Positions 1 through 12,440 of a stretch of 64,000 nucleotides of DNA are shown here, in pieces; position 1 is the stretch's first letter; every line of letters begins with the position of its first letter. The stretch is from NCBI GenBank assembly GCA_937928595.1, contig CALGJV010000008.1, positions 1 through 64,000 on the forward strand, read 5' to 3'. Under the pieces are notes generated by a model. It saw only the letters and a program-made list of their open reading frames with translations. It was not told the DNA's origin and ran no database searches. Position numbers and translations under genes: made by a program. This stretch comes from an uncultured Phycisphaerae bacterium. GTDB taxonomy: Bacteria; Planctomycetota; Phycisphaerae; UBA1845; Fen-1342.

Positions 1-53
1 CCTGTGAACCCCACCCCTGATGAAGAAGGGATTGAGACCGTGAATGCGTGCCA

Positions 54-172
54 CAGGTGTCACACGTGAAGCATGTGACACGTTGGGGCGGCGACGCTCT
101 GGGGGGAGCGCGCAGGAAACCCGTGTGGCACCTGTTGCACGTGTCAGACGTGCAGCACGTGACACGTAGGGG
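54..172. repeat. Two 35-bp imperfect palindromic repeats upstream of the CARF gene
   Basis: Two units at 54-88 and 138-172 match at 30 of 35 positions and are separated by 49 bp. Each contains an inverted repeat: GTGTCACA at 57-64 with TGTGACAC at 74-81, and GTGTCA at 141-146 with TGACAC at 160-165. A further half-site in inverse orientation (GTGTGGCACCTG, 123-134) resembles CAGGTGTCACAC of the first unit, and a partial GCACGTGTC lies at 204-212. They could be operator sites for the gene starting at 325 or the remnant of a CRISPR array; two units cannot decide. The window starts 53 bp before the first unit, so more copies may lie outside. The rest of 1-324 shows no gene. Confidence 0.6.
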
Positions 173-324
173 GGCCGGCTCCGTGGAGTGGACCCGGCGG
201 GCAGCACGTGTCGCCCGCGCCGGAGGTTCTTCCACGGGTTGAGCGGGCGTCAGCGCCGCGGTAGATTGCCCACCGCGCGGCCGGAGTCGGCGGGCAAGCC
301 GGCCGCCGGCCCTGGAGGTTTCGC

Positions 325-1632
325 ATGCGCATTCTGGTCGCCACCGTCGGCACCGGCCGCGACCGCAAGGACGTGGCCGGCGCGATCGCGCTCTCCACGC
401 GCGAGCACCGCGCCGACCGGCTCGTCTGCCTTACCTCGGAGAAGACGGAAGAAGAGACGCTGCCGGAGGTGCGGGCCCTCCTGGCCGACAACGGCGTGAT
501 CGTGGAACACCGCACGGTCGCCGCGGTGGACGACGTGCAGGCGCTGTTCGGCGCGTATCGGCGGATTCTGGCGGAGCTGGCGGAGCGGCACCCGACGGCC
601 GAGCTGATGGCCGACTTCACCTCGGGCACCAAGCCCATGTCGGCGGCGCTGTTCGCGGCGGCCGTCGCGCAGCGGGTGGGGAGCGTGAGTTACGTGGTCG
701 GGGAGCGGGACGAGACCGGGCGGGCCGTGGGGGGCGGGCCGATGAGGACGTTCCGCCTGACGCCGGACCTGGTGACGGCGGACGAGGACCTGCGGCTGGC
801 GCGGCGGCTGTTCAACGCGGGGGACTACCACGCGGCGCGGGAGCTGGCGCGGCGGTATGCACGGCGACCGGAAGGGCTGCCGGACGGGGAGCTGAAGAAC
901 CTGGCACGCGCGATCTGCAAGGTCGCGGACGCGCACTGGAAGTGGGAGCGGTTCGACTGGTCCGGGGCGGCGCATGACCTGAGCGGGTGGAACCACTGGC
1001 TGCCGGCCGCGGAGGCGCCGTGGGGCGAGAAACTGGAGGAGCAGCGGCGGTTCCTGGTGAAGTGCGCCGGCGACAAGCGGGACGAGTGGCCGGCGGAGCG
1101 GGTGGCGGACCTGGCGGCGAACGCGCAGCGGCGCCTGCGGCAGGGGCAGTATGACGACGGGGTGGCGCGGTGCTACCGGGCGATCGAGTATCTGGCGCAA
1201 TGGAAGCTGGCGCGGGACCACGGGATCGCCAACACGGGCAAGGTGCCGGTGGAGCGGATACCGGAGGGGCTGCGGGCGGTGCTGTGCCGCAAGGAGGACG
1301 TGCCGGAGATCAAGGTCGGTCTCCAGAACGCCTACCGGCTGCTGGAGGCGCGGGGCGACCCGCTCGGGGCCGAGTTCCACCGGCGCTACGCGGGGGAGGA
1401 TCGGTCGTGGGAGGGCGCGCGGGGCGAGCTGGCCAATCTGCTTCAGGCGCGCAACCAGTCATGGCTGGCGCACGGGCGGGAGTCCGCGCGGCGCGAGCGT
1501 GTCGGAGAACTGCTGGCGCAGGTCCGGGAGCTCGCCGGCTCGGTCATTCCCGGGTTCGACGGGCTGCTGGCGACGGCGGAGCACGTCCGGTGGCCGCTGC
1601 CGGAGGAGCCGGCCGGGACGGAAGGCGAGTGA
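325..1632 (+). CDS. CARF-HEPN protein, CRISPR-associated TIGR02710 (Cas_Cas02710) family
   Basis: This is a 435-residue protein. The N-terminal Rossmann-like part begins with a VGTGR loop (residues 7-11) and contains DFTSGTKPMSAAL near residues 98-110; both are typical of CARF domains of the TIGR02710/Csx1-Csm6 group, which bind cyclic oligoadenylate made by type III CRISPR Cas10. The C-terminal half is helical and carries RNQSWLAH with R376 and H383, an R-x6-H motif as in HEPN ribonucleases. By family knowledge it would be an RNase switched on by a nucleotide second messenger. The ATG at 325 has GGAGG at 314-318. No cas10, cas7-type or cas1/2 gene is visible downstream, where insertion-sequence scars begin, so it looks orphan here. 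The family call is firm; activity is inferred. Confidence 0.85.
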   Translation: MRILVATVGTGRDRKDVAGAIALSTREHRADRLVCLTSEKTEEETLPEVRALLADNGVIVEHRTVAAVDDVQALFGAYRRILAELAERHPTAELMADFTSGTKPMSAALFAAAVAQRVGSVSYVVGERDETGRAVGGGPMRTFRLTPDLVTADEDLRLARRLFNAGDYHAARELARRYARRPEGLPDGELKNLARAICKVADAHWKWERFDWSGAAHDLSGWNHWLPAAEAPWGEKLEEQRRFLVKCAGDKRDEWPAERVADLAANAQRRLRQGQYDDGVARCYRAIEYLAQWKLARDHGIANTGKVPVERIPEGLRAVLCRKEDVPEIKVGLQNAYRLLEARGDPLGAEFHRRYAGEDRSWEGARGELANLLQARNQSWLAHGRESARRERVGELLAQVRELAGSVIPGFDGLLATAEHVRWPLPEEPAGTEGE

Positions 1633-2120: not shown

Positions 2121-2861
2121 ACCCCGTTGTTCGGAGTTGAGCGCGGAGCCCGGTGATCGGCCGTGCGCAGCGGTCGCTTGTGCGGGTCCGGTGCGATTGC
2201 GTGGGGTCAGTCTGCGGTGATGGGTTGCCAGCGGTCGGGCAGGAGCGTGTTGAGCTGGCTGACGGGGGTGGCGGCGATGCGGGTGAGCACGTCGCGTGGA
2301 TACGCCCACGGCTCGACCTGATGCCGCTGGCAGGTGGCGATCAGACTGAACAGGGTCGCGGCCGTGACCCCGCCGTTGTCGGACCCACAGAAGAGCCAGT
2401 TTTTGCGGCCGACCGCCACGCGGCGCAGCGCGTTCTCGGCGGCGTTGTTGTCGATCGCCAGCCGGCCGTCGGTGGTGTAGACGCACAGCGCCTGCCACTG
2501 ATTCAGCGCGTACCCGATCGCCTGCCCCAGCGGGCTCTTGGGCAGCACCGCTCCGCCGCGCTCGGCCTGCTGGGATTCCAGCCAGGCCCGGAACTCCACG
2601 AGACGCGGCAGGGCTTGCTCCCGCCGTAGACGAAGGCGATTCTCAACGAGCAACTCGGGCAAGCGTCGATCAGGCGTCTCGTTGTCGTGGGCGCGCTCCG
2701 CCTGCGCCGCTTGCTCGGCTTCCTGCTGCGCCTGCCTCTCGACGCTCTCGACGTCATAGAGCAGCCGGATGTGCGCCAGGGCCTGGTTGCCGACCGCCGG
2801 GTCGCTGTTGCGGGCGTCGTAGAACTTCCGCCGCGCATTCGCCCAGCAGGCCACCTCGGTC
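2106..2861 (-). mobile_element. IS66-family right-end fragment (element B)
   Basis: The outer end is the terminal repeat at 2106-2127. Inward lies the 3' part of tnpC on the minus strand. The element breaks off inside tnpC at about 2860; at 2862 an IS3-type orfB begins in mid-gene on the plus strand, so the left part of element B, including tnpA, tnpB and most of tnpC, is absent. Confidence 0.6.
2207..2860 (-). pseudogene. tnpC: 5'-truncated IS66 transposase TnpC
   Basis: About 217 C-terminal residues of an IS66 transposase; full-length proteins are about 500 residues. Recognisable are TEVACWANARRKFYDA at the broken end, IDNNAAENALRRVAVGRKNW around the last conserved Asp-containing block, LFCGSDNGG, and PRDVLTRIA before the stop at 2207. 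The in-frame sequence matches the family up to the TEV triplets ending at 2860 and stops matching beyond them. The zinc-binding N-terminus and the first catalytic acidic residues are lost, so the protein cannot be active. Confidence 0.85.
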
Positions 2862-3375
2862 GAATGTCTGACGTTGGAGGTGGAGCGGAGCCTGACGGCC
2901 GCGGACGTGATCGACGTGCTGCGCTACGTGTTCCTGGTGCGCGGCGTGCCGCGCTTCATCCGCAGCGACAACGGGCCGGAGTTCATCGCCCGGGCGCTGC
3001 GTGATTACCTGGAGGTTGCCCAGGTCGGCACGCTCTACATCGAACCTGGCACGCCGTGGGAGAACGGTTATGCCGAGAGCTTTTACGGCAAGCTCCGCGA
3101 CGAGTTGCTCAACGCCGAGCTGTTCGCTGACCTGCGCGAGGCCAAGGCCCTGGGCGAAAGCTGGTGCCGCGATTACAACCAGCGCCGGCCGCACTCGGCG
3201 TTGCGTTACCGGACGCCGGCGGCGTTCGCCGCGTCTCTTGGGGCTCCGCCCCAAACCCCGCCAGGGGCTCTGCCCTTGGACCCCGGCTTCTTCCCCTCCG
3301 CGGAAAGGGGTGCCGGAATCGAGAATCGAGGACCCGACTCTCATTGCGACTGGTACATAAACCGGGGGCAGGTCA
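2862..3375 (+). mobile_element. IS3-family 3' fragment with right terminal repeat
   Basis: The fragment begins inside orfB at 2862 (ECLTLEVERS) and ends with a terminal repeat at 3351-3375 whose complement starts TGACCTGCCCCCGG, a typical IS3-group end. Near the end of the coding part lies a perfect hairpin, TTGGGGC at 3238-3244 and GCCCCAA at 3248-3254, in a stretch that does not resemble a transposase. The left end and orfA are missing, so no target duplication can be assessed. Confidence 0.6.
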
Positions 3376-3473
3376 GGTCGAAAGGACGCGCGAGGCAGAC
3401 CCGAATGCGAGCGAACGAGCGACGCGCCGGCCCAGCCAGACGACCCCGCGGTCCCCGATCACCCGCGCATTGA
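2862..3473 (+). pseudogene. 5'-truncated IS3-family transposase OrfB (integrase core)
   Basis: The frame contains the C-terminal half of the DDE integrase core. SDNGPEFIARAL holds the second catalytic Asp, then come GTPWENGYAESFYGKLRDEL with the catalytic Glu and YNQRRPHSALRYRTPAAFA, the usual IS3 ending. The first catalytic Asp and all N-terminal parts are missing. After SLG at about 3242 the frame reads through a hairpin-rich GC stretch and past the element end to a stop at 3471-3473, so the natural stop is lost as well. It can only be a remnant. Confidence 0.85.
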
Positions 3474-5033: not shown

Positions 5034-6182
5034 CTAACCCTGCGATTCCTTCTCGAGGATCTGGTCCTCGTAGCTCTTGCGGCCGAGCATGCCGCCGGCG
5101 GTCGTGCCGCGCAGTTTCGCCTCGATCTTGGATTGGAGGTCGGACGGATTGCGGGAGCGCTCGACACACTCGTCGGCCGCGCAGATGCCGTTGTCGTAGA
5201 GCGTCCAGAGGTGGTCGTCGAGGAGCTGCATGCCGTACTTCTTGCCGGTCTGGATGGCCGAGTCGATACGGAACGTCTTGTTCTCGCGGATGAGGTTGCT
5301 CACGGCCGGCGTGACCACGAGGAACTCGTACGCGGCGACGCGGCCGCCGGTGCCCTGCTTGGGCAGCAGGGCCTGCGACAGCACGGCCAGCAGGTTCGTG
5401 CTGAGCTGCACGCGAATCTGCTCCTGCTGGTTCACGGGGAAGGCGTCGATGATGCGGTTGATCGTGCCCTGGGCGCCCGTGGTGTGCAGGGTGGCGAACA
5501 CGAGGTGGCCGGTCTCCGCGGCGCGGATGGCGGCTTCCATCGTTTCGAGGTCGCGCATTTCGCCAACCAGCACCACGTCGGGGTCCATGCGCAGGCTGCG
5601 CCGCAGCGCCTCGGCAAAGCTCGGCACATCGACACCCACCTCGCGCTGCGTGACCACGCACTTCTGGTGCGTGTGGTAGTACTCGATCGGGTCCTCCACC
5701 GTGATGATGTGCCGGTCGCCGACCTGCCGGTTGATGTAGTCCAGCATCGTGGCCAGCGTGGTGGTCTTGCCCGAACCGGTCGGCCCGGTGACCAGGAACA
5801 GACCGCGCGGCCGGCGGCACAGGGCCTTCACGATCGGCGGCAGCCCGATCTCCTCGAAGGTCAGGATCTTCGAGGGAATCAGGCGCAGCACCATCGAGAT
5901 GTTGCCCTTCTGGCGGAAGACCGAGACGCGGAAGCGGCCGGCGTCGCCGAAGGCAAAGCCGTAGTCCGTGCCGCCTTCCTCCTGCAGCTCCTGCTGGTTG
6001 CGCTCGGGCGTCACCGATTTCATCAGTGCGGTCGTGTCGTCCGGCTCGAGGGACTTGGTCTCCAGCGAGCGCAGCCGGCCGTCCACGCGGAGCACCGGCG
6101 GACGGCCGACGTGCAGGTGAATATCGGACGCGCCAACGCGGATGCACGTCTCGAGCAAGCGGTCGATGTGTACGGTCGCCAC
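5034..6182 (-). CDS. pilT: Type IV pilus twitching ATPase PilT
   Basis: This 382-residue protein is full length for PilT. It begins with SDIHLHVGRPPVLRVDG, has Walker A GPTGSGKTTT, the Asp box ITVEDPIEY, Walker B VVLVGEMRDLETM and the His box HLVFATLHT. PilT powers retraction of type IV pili from the cytoplasmic side of the inner membrane. It lies 41 bp downstream of the PilB-like gene on the same strand, probably in one operon. Pilin, PilC and PilMNOPQ genes are not in the window. An alternative, less likely, is another retraction paralogue such as PilU. Confidence 0.93.
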   Translation of the reverse strand: MATVHIDRLLETCIRVGASDIHLHVGRPPVLRVDGRLRSLETKSLEPDDTTALMKSVTPERNQQELQEEGGTDYGFAFGDAGRFRVSVFRQKGNISMVLRLIPSKILTFEEIGLPPIVKALCRRPRGLFLVTGPTGSGKTTTLATMLDYINRQVGDRHIITVEDPIEYYHTHQKCVVTQREVGVDVPSFAEALRRSLRMDPDVVLVGEMRDLETMEAAIRAAETGHLVFATLHTTGAQGTINRIIDAFPVNQQEQIRVQLSTNLLAVLSQALLPKQGTGGRVAAYEFLVVTPAVSNLIRENKTFRIDSAIQTGKKYGMQLLDDHLWTLYDNGICAADECVERSRNPSDLQSKIEAKLRGTTAGGMLGRKSYEDQILEKESQG

Positions 6183-10043: not shown

Positions 10044-12440
10044 TCACCCGCCGATCAGCGCCACGAACGCATCGATGTCATCGAAGTCCACGTCGCGGTC
10101 GCCGTCGCAGTCGGCGCTCTCCCAGTAGCACCCGGGATACTCGGCCTCGTAGCCCGCGCGCCCGCTCAGGGCAGCCACGAACGGGTCGATGTCGTCGAAG
10201 TCCACCGCGCCGCTGCAATCCGTGTCGCCCGGCGTGAACGGCGGCACGAAAACGCAGCTCGGCGCCTCGCGCGTCACCCGCACGGCATCGACCAGCCAAC
10301 CGCGGGTCGTGTTGTAGTTCTCGTCGATGCTGTCGAACCGCCAGTCGAGCACGACCGTCTGCCCGGCCCACGCCGTCAGGTCCACCGACCGGGTCTGCCA
10401 CGTCGCGCTCTCCGCCGGCGTGTCGCTCAGGCCGCCGTTCACGTACATACCCGCCAGGTCGTAGCCCCACGCGTTCTCCGTCTGGAGCAGCGAGCAGTAC
10501 GTCAGCAGGATCCGCCCGCCGACGGGCACCGTGGGCAGCGCCAGCGGGGCCGCCGTCAGCGTCCCGCGCGTCCGCGCGCCGGTGGAATAGTTGCAGCCGC
10601 TGTCCCGGCCGTAGTACGCCCACCTCACGCCGTCGCACGCGGGCGCCACGCCGCAGGCCGTGCTCACGTGCCACAGGCCCGTGGTCGTCCAGCCCGCGGG
10701 CAGGCCGCTTTCGAAGCGCTGTTCGAGCAACGTTTCCGGTACGAGCGTGCCGACGGACGCCGCCAGCGGCGCCGCGGCGCCGCCGGCCGGTGCGGTCTTC
10801 AGCCCGGTGCGCGTTCCCTCGGCCGCGACGTAGTATTCGGGGCTGTCGCCGCACAGCATGCGCGGCAGCGTCGCGGCGTACGTCGTGCCGCCCAGCGGCA
10901 CGAGCGGCGCCGACTCGAACGCGCCGCCCCGGAAGCGGTAATGCAGCCGCGCCGTCCCCGGCACGAGCACCTCGTCGCCCGGGTCGATCGTCACGTTGAA
11001 CGTGGTCGGCGACCACGGCGGGACGACCCGCGGCGGCGCCGGCACCGCCACGCGCAATCCCGTGTCCCGCACGGTGAAGCGGTACGTCCCGACCGGGGCC
11101 GTGCGCGGCAGCGTCTCGGCCCGTCCCGACGCATCGGCCGCCGCGAGGTAGTACTCGACGGTCGTGCCCGGCGGCGGCCCCGGAATCGCCCCGGCGAACT
11201 CGTGCGGCGTCTCCGTCGCGACCAGCGGCGCGCTGTTCCACGCGGTCGTGCCGGCCGCCCGCCACCAGACGCGCAGCGCATCGGGCAGCAGCGCCGCCCC
11301 GCTGTGGGCCCGGATCGTCGCGGTCAGCGGAACCTGGGCCGCCGGGGCGACTTCGGCCTCCAGCCGGCGGTGCGTCAGATGCAGCATGTGGCGGTCGAAC
11401 ACGGCCCGCGTGCGACAGTGGAGCGCGTCGTAGTAGTACCAGTTCGCGTAGTCGAAGCCGGTGACCTCGTAGCCCGGCAGCGCGGCGCGGTACGTGGCCA
11501 GCGCCGCCGCATCGGCCGGAATGTCGAACAGCGGCACGAACACGCGGCGGTTGAGAATCAGGGCGTTCGTGTAGTTGGCGATCCGCCCGTTGTTGTTGTA
11601 TGGCGGACAGTCGATCCGCAGGATGCGGTACGGGCGGCCGTAGCTGCCGGTCAGGCCCGCGAGCGTCGCCACATTGGCCTCGATCCGCGCGTACTCCTCG
11701 TGCCAGGGTGGAGCACGCTTGACCAGCAGCGTCTCCTCGTCGAGGAGCTTGAACCAGCAGTCGATGTGCTGGATGCCGTTGTTCTCGGTGTTGTTCAGCA
11801 CGCGGTACGTGTCGATGCCCGCGTACTGCTGCGCCAGCGCGTAGAACTGGGCCGGCGTCCAGAGCTGCTGGTTCTCCCCGATCATCGCGCAGGTCGAGAA
11901 CGCGGCCCCGCGGCCGTCCACCAGGAAGTTGCCGCCGGTCAGGTACGCGTTCAGCGCGTACACCGGCGCGCCGAAGTACGCGGCCACGCTCGTCGGCACG
12001 GTGTCGTCGCCGGTGTAGCCGCCCGGCGACGTGATCGGCACGCACGGCGTGTTCACCCACGGATAGCCGCGGAAGACCGGGTCCACGATCCCCCACGTCC
12101 CGTTGCCGTCGAAGATCTGGTGCGGGCCCCAGTCGCGCGGCCAGACGCTGCCGACGTTGCAGCGGATGTATTCCACGCGTGCCGGATCCAGCCCCCATGA
12201 CGTCAGCGTCGCGCGGGCCTGGTCCTCGTGCGCCGCGCTGCGGACCAGCACGTACAGGCGATCATCGCGGGCCAGCTCGACCACCAGCGCTTGCGGCAGC
12301 CCGAGCGGCCAGCTGATCAGCGTGCCCAGCGCGGGTTCCCACTCGGCGCACACCCGCACGGGCGCGACCGGCTGGGCGCGGACAGCCGCCCCGGTTGCGA
12401 ACAGGGTGAGGGCCAGGAGCAATCGGGTGATGCGATTCAT
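10044..12440 (-). CDS. Secreted agmatine/peptidylarginine deiminase-family enzyme with dockerin-like C-terminus
   Basis: The 798-residue protein starts with a Sec signal peptide (MNRITRLLLALTLFATG...). The PAD_porph-type catalytic domain shows WPRDWGP with D103, HIDCWFKLL with H225 and D227, and ALHCRTRAV with C342. Order and spacing agree with the Asp/His/Asp/Cys set of Porphyromonas PPAD and agmatine deiminases. Family enzymes turn guanidino groups into ureido groups; a secreted form could act on arginine residues or agmatine. The middle has beta-rich segments and a carbohydrate-binding-like stretch. The last 61 residues (10047-10229) form a dockerin-like module shared with two other proteins here. 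The ATG at 12440 was chosen because it starts the signal peptide. Confidence 0.85.
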   Translation of the reverse strand: MNRITRLLLALTLFATGAAVRAQPVAPVRVCAEWEPALGTLISWPLGLPQALVVELARDDRLYVLVRSAAHEDQARATLTSWGLDPARVEYIRCNVGSVWPRDWGPHQIFDGNGTWGIVDPVFRGYPWVNTPCVPITSPGGYTGDDTVPTSVAAYFGAPVYALNAYLTGGNFLVDGRGAAFSTCAMIGENQQLWTPAQFYALAQQYAGIDTYRVLNNTENNGIQHIDCWFKLLDEETLLVKRAPPWHEEYARIEANVATLAGLTGSYGRPYRILRIDCPPYNNNGRIANYTNALILNRRVFVPLFDIPADAAALATYRAALPGYEVTGFDYANWYYYDALHCRTRAVFDRHMLHLTHRRLEAEVAPAAQVPLTATIRAHSGAALLPDALRVWWRAAGTTAWNSAPLVATETPHEFAGAIPGPPPGTTVEYYLAAADASGRAETLPRTAPVGTYRFTVRDTGLRVAVPAPPRVVPPWSPTTFNVTIDPGDEVLVPGTARLHYRFRGGAFESAPLVPLGGTTYAATLPRMLCGDSPEYYVAAEGTRTGLKTAPAGGAAAPLAASVGTLVPETLLEQRFESGLPAGWTTTGLWHVSTACGVAPACDGVRWAYYGRDSGCNYSTGARTRGTLTAAPLALPTVPVGGRILLTYCSLLQTENAWGYDLAGMYVNGGLSDTPAESATWQTRSVDLTAWAGQTVVLDWRFDSIDENYNTTRGWLVDAVRVTREAPSCVFVPPFTPGDTDCSGAVDFDDIDPFVAALSGRAGYEAEYPGCYWESADCDGDRDVDFDDIDAFVALIGG

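Follow-up and report, generated by a model that had tools for sequence, protein, structure and literature searches.

Among described systems, the closest to the locus considered here are the type III-A (Csm) CRISPR-Cas loci with Csm6. In such systems, target RNA prompts Csm1 (Cas10) to produce cyclic oligoadenylate, which acts through the CARF domain of Csm6 to activate its HEPN RNase; the RNase motif of HEPN domains has the form R-X4-6-H. To our knowledge, no CRISPR regulator has been described for Phycisphaerae. A precedent for control of csm6 comes from Mycobacterium tuberculosis, where the TetR-type protein CasR represses csm6 and has its binding site in the csm6 promoter, a palindrome spanning -331 to -301 (PMC9953421).

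The window, by which we mean the whole 64,000-nucleotide stretch of DNA that was analyzed, begins at base 1 of contig C8 in a genome of 46 contigs. The features with which we are concerned lie at its start.

2..39, + strand: CRISPR repeat CTGTGAACCCCACCCCTGATGAAGAAGGGATTGAGACC, adjoining the end of the contig and read as the final (leader-distal) one of an array
40..324, no strand assigned: gap from the last CRISPR repeat to csm6, 285 bp
54-88, + strand: repeat unit 1, with dyad GTGTCA-N13-TGACAC at 57-81
120..161, no strand assigned: CACGTG-like hexamers in 9-bp steps, at 120, 129, 138, 147 and 156
138-172, + strand: repeat unit 2, with dyad GTGTCA-N13-TGACAC at 141-165
205..212, no strand assigned: half-site CACGTGTC, a single further site with CACGTG at 205
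239..267, + strand: candidate weak csm6 promoter TTGAGC-17-TAGATT, 8 of 12 consensus positions, found by eye
325..1632, + strand: csm6 (TIGR02710), with predicted CARF, 6H and HEPN RNase domains

The original prediction had overlooked both the repeat at the contig edge and the fact that a contig starts where the window does. This repeat was compared with Rfam, where its best match, CRISPR-DR32, scored 22.8 bits, below the gathering score of 48. A search with 36 of its bases, allowing up to 3 mismatches, found the repeat elsewhere in the genome only at the end of contig C20. Two full copies are present there, at 10145-10182 and 10221-10258, together with a third that starts at 10296 and is cut by the contig end, so that the cas genes of C20 have a CRISPR array beside them; a further copy is the one at the start of C8. 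On the plus strand of C20, the repeats follow cas6 (PF10040), csm1, csm2, csm3, csm4, csm5, cas1 and cas2, in that order. The predicted Csm1 protein matched TIGR02578 at 471.1 bits (cutoff 170) as well as PF22335, and has GGDD at residue 621. Csm2 (43.2 bits), Csm3 (199.4) and Csm5 (47.7) each exceeded their cutoffs, and Csm4, at 50.4 bits, fell just below its curated cutoff of 55. The last 20 bases of C20 are identical to the first 20 bases of C8. Because the repeat is confined to C8 and C20, the contig ends share these 20 nt, and the cas families lie on C20, we take the two contigs to carry a single predicted type III-A locus. It is almost certainly an ordinary type III-A CRISPR-Cas locus that was cut inside its array by assembly. 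The full locus would read cas6-csm1-csm2-csm3-csm4-csm5-cas1-cas2-array-csm6, with the assembly break leaving the cas genes on C20 and the last repeat and csm6 at the start of C8, where the window begins; the shortest join of the two contigs gives three repeats and two spacers. Compared with the described type III-A systems with Csm6, cas6, csm1 to csm5, cas1, cas2, an array and csm6 are likewise all present and there is no categorical difference, csm6 here being placed behind the array.

The gene at 325..1632 had originally been predicted to encode a TIGR02710 CARF-HEPN protein, and its product does match that family, with 154.3 bits (cutoff 83.9) over residues 22-403. Pfam searches of the product found the HEPN family PF09670 (89.4 bits, cutoff 27) and the 6H family PF22205 (28.2 bits); the CARF family PF22208 scored 20.6, under its cutoff of 27.5. 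A CARF domain is predicted from the TIGR02710 match and from the motif FTSGTK, which is invariant in four homologues. At residues 376-383 the protein has RNQSWLAH, an R-X6-H form of the HEPN motif in which the R and H are invariant in four aligned homologues. From the families to which Csm1 and Csm6 belong, we infer cyclic-oligoadenylate signalling with putative RNase activation in this locus. A search of the literature found no paper on TIGR02710 with CARF, nor on CRISPR array breaks.

It had been suggested that, were the dyads an operator, the gene might be an autonomous CARF-HEPN module with its own control; such a module would belong to no CRISPR system. Parts of insertion sequences follow the gene, and none of the three scanned ORFs just after it is a cas gene, which favors such a module; against it stand the repeat at the contig edge (2-39) and, on C20, the type III-A locus that goes with it. 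The gene follows a repeat whose other copies sit behind that locus, so this part of the original prediction is not supported, and we consider an autonomous module very improbable. Since the repeat recurs only behind the cas genes of C20, the predicted CARF-HEPN gene most likely represents the csm6 that belongs to an ordinary type III-A locus with a broken array. What looks like a lone second-messenger RNase would then most likely be part of a complete type III-A system split across two contigs, and a split of this kind, at a CRISPR repeat, is a trap for readers of single contigs.

Homologues of csm6 were found in 11 of 200 relatives and, at E ≤1e-20, in 13 of 397 genomes drawn from the class, the genome itself being counted in both sets. 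A scan of genome contigs identified csm6 homologues at 42 loci. The nearest other full-length homologue was 43% identical and short fragments were 47-51% identical; the homologue matches listed included no second genome from this family. L012/L026, the nearest homologue, belongs to the same order, and its contig carries the title Phycisphaerae bacterium. An array ends 400 bp or less upstream of csm6 at 6 of the 42 loci (L026 and L027, which, judged by length and position, are the contigs of L012 and L014; L034; L050; L053; and L064), and at some of the 42 the contig stops before an array could be seen. A lone degenerate repeat occupies the same place at L060 (identical to L086 over the sequence compared). 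The core CCCTGATGAAnAAGGGATTG is common to the window repeat and to the repeats of L012, L014, L053 and L060. Array-like repeats were also seen downstream of the gene, in 11 of the 42 loci, which runs counter to an array-then-csm6 context. An array followed by csm6 is a recurrent arrangement, which favors that context, and the system is one of a known kind.

The gap between the last repeat and csm6 contains, as had been described, two 35-bp units with 30 identities and 49 bp between them (84 bp from start to start), each with an internal dyad. None of 1000 dinucleotide-preserving shuffles of 40-324 reached 30/35 (mean 20.8, maximum 25). In a non-overlapping comparison, the two copies scored 28.5, and 0 of 2000 shuffles scored as high (maximum 18). 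Elsewhere in the window, 3 of 223 segments of 285 bp also hold direct repeats of at least 30/35. The repeat pair is thus not a product of chance, yet it is not unique in kind. The ungapped identity of the copies is 30/35 within the unit and 3/14 just to its left; on the right it is 8/14 and 11/35. When gaps are allowed, the alignment of the copies carries on past the units to about position 116. The left edge of the similarity is sharp and the right edge is not. The dyad arms (57-62 and 76-81 in unit 1) have no mismatch between the units; of the five mismatches, three lie within the hexamers described below. As palindromes, the dyads are weak: 20/29 and 18/29 positions are self-complementary in the two units, and the window has 17 other 29-mers with at least 22, so that this degree of self-complementarity is unremarkable for a GC-rich window. 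The longest perfect arm, 8, was reached by 194 of 1000 shuffles, and the number of arms of at least 7 (n=7) by 2 of 1000.

A genome search for the unit that allowed up to 3 mismatches found the two units and no third copy. The half-site at 205 does not amount to a significant third copy either, as 429 of 1000 shuffles aligned as well. The units had been proposed as possible type III CRISPR repeats, which would make them a second, degenerate array with a 49-bp spacer. Their length and spacing are within the range of CRISPR units, but an array needs at least three near-identical repeats with unique spacers, and the genome holds two copies only, which are 30/35 alike. Moreover, unit 1 begins 15 bp after the true repeat, and the gap has no likeness to that repeat at 2-39, shuffles aligning at least as well in 967 of 1000 cases on the plus strand and 328 of 1000 on the minus strand. 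The proposal is refuted on these counts, and a second array is barely conceivable. Repetitive extragenic palindromes (REP), which occur in high copy number, are likewise short, palindromic, non-coding repeats; the units differ in having two copies at one place, and with no third copy a dispersed REP-like family in the genome was discarded. Nor did the searches point to a regulon: at up to 3 mismatches there were 9 forward and 12 reverse matches, compared with 8 and 6 for the reversed control, and only the two units matched at 0-1.

A clearer pattern than self-complementarity is the phasing of CACGTG-like hexamers in 9-bp steps. In addition to the run of five at 120..161, a shorter run is found at 54, 63 and 72. 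Within 1-324, six pairs of such hexamers are at distance 9, compared with 0-2 at the other distances from 6 to 14, and the TRF program reported a period of 9 at 137-161. The further sites related to the units that had been noted originally were found as well, as the CACGTG at 205 and the hexamers at 120 and 129. Three phased hexamers at up to 2 mismatches start, in the whole genome, only at 54, 120, 129 and 138, all in the gap; at up to 3 mismatches there were 22 forward matches in the genome and 17 for a reversed control. In the class, 11 of 396 other genomes had a match with no more than 1 mismatch, compared with 4 genomes for the control. All 11 matches sit in stop-free frames of 322-1007 codons and are therefore probably coding; the match in L097 continues for six steps. 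A coding origin was also considered for the repeat in the window, since the frame 36-241 is open, and was rejected: by eye, most differences between the units alter an amino acid, and with a GC content of 71% open frames are to be expected often.

The dyad was then sought in other genomes. TGTCA-N6..18-TGACA was not found upstream of any of 43 csm6 homologues (350 bp or less scanned), nor in 12 loci scanned over up to 1500 bp, whose genes partly overlap the 43; two further fragments beside the 12 loci were checked for the repeat core only. A search of 114 genomes of the order, with up to 3 mismatches allowed, gave the two units themselves, without mismatch, and five single matches at 2-3 mismatches, compared with 2 for the control. 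No exact match to the dyad pattern was present in viral contigs. The lack of the dyad upstream of homologues counts against a conserved operator, but the test is a weak one, because even the nearest of the full-length homologues shares just 43% identity and an operator need not persist over such a distance. The original prediction had also held that a lack of conservation in relatives would make the cluster chance. By that test its operator reading fails, but the relatives compared are too distant for the test to be a strong one.

Two explanations of the units are hard to tell apart on the present evidence. The one that we put first, as plausible though somewhat short of probable, is that they are a local, lineage-specific repeat with no dedicated function. 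In the loosely constrained stretch that follows the array, slippage in 9-bp steps together with a short duplication would have made them; we infer both this origin and the absence of function. The exact 9-bp steps of the hexamers with the TRF period, the absence of the dyad upstream of all 43 homologues and of other copies in the genome, the equally strong direct repeats in 3 of 223 segments, and the presence of other two-copy repeats upstream of csm6 in L047 and L054 are all consistent with such a history. It is placed slightly ahead of an operator because the gapped alignment passes the unit and the right edge is not sharp. On the other side, the ungapped identity is uneven for a plain 84-bp duplication, the mismatches favor the hexamers and spare the dyad arms, and a location upstream of an RNase gene, with CasR as precedent (PMC9953421), suits a control site.

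The other explanation, which we hold as possible and only tentatively, is that the units are a lineage-specific candidate binding site for a regulator of csm6, its two copies lying on the same face of the DNA about eight turns apart. Such a putative site would hold down or switch the gene for a cell-damaging RNase. An identity of 30/35 against a shuffle maximum of 25, mismatch-free dyad arms, a sharp left boundary, a position upstream of csm6 and a spacing of 84 bp, equal to eight helical turns of 10.5 bp, would all suit a site of this kind. CasR (PMC9953421) offers a parallel in that its palindromic site also lies well upstream (-331 to -301; here the units are some 150-270 bp before the start codon). 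It differs in sequence and in that binding and repression were measured for it; the locus here has two units and a putative regulator only. Several observations weigh against a candidate control site: the dyad was found in 0/43 and 0/12 upstream regions, no further genome copy gives a sign of a regulon or of an autoregulated regulator, none of the 10 proteins scanned on C20 is annotated as a regulator (a DUF1580 protein of uncertain role is among them), self-complementarity is ordinary, and a promoter scan found none above threshold ahead of csm6. A more specific form, in which the units and the half-site at 205 make up a dedicated two-site looping operator that controls csm6 apart from the rest of the type III-A locus, we regard as unlikely. 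Were the units an operator, csm6 would have a control of its own, distinct from that of the cas operon, as has been described in M. tuberculosis (PMC9953421).

The units might instead act at the RNA level, forming hairpins in the pre-crRNA tail or the leader of csm6, where they could serve as a terminator, insulator or stability element. In silico, each unit can adopt a stem that has 7-8 outer pairs and a short inner stem, but they fold little better than shuffles (z of -1.59 and -0.38 for the units, and -1.84 for 96-236), no terminator was found in 1-400, and no Rfam family reached its gathering score in 1-330. We consider this predicted role decidedly unlikely, and its terminator version was rejected. 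A known RNA family in the gap was rejected too, all Rfam matches being below gathering score: three to CRISPR repeats at 2-38 and one to a miRNA at 122-168.

Some further features of the gene neighborhoods were observed. On C20 (locus L005 of this genome, G000), positions 282-1232 encode a DUF1580 protein and a tyrosine-recombinase-like protein upstream of cas6 and on the opposite strand, which suggests that the CRISPR locus is in a mobile-element neighborhood. After csm6, positions 2207-3473 of the window contain part of an IS66 transposase on the minus strand and part of an rve-type integrase on the plus strand. Upstream of a csm6 homologue in L054, whose record is titled Blastocatellia, two palindromic units of about 30 bp lie 70 bp apart (5838-5938) and differ, by eye, from those of the window; in L047, a short sequence is duplicated, with its copies 83 bp apart, in the region where the csm6 homologue starts (5886-6006). 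Just upstream of csm6 in L013 and L014, a promoter-like pair, TTGACA-17-TATTTT, is common to genomes G156 and G188, as judged by eye. In G188 the pair lies behind an array, and in G156 there is no array in the 262 bp examined; csm6 may have its own promoter in these two genomes.
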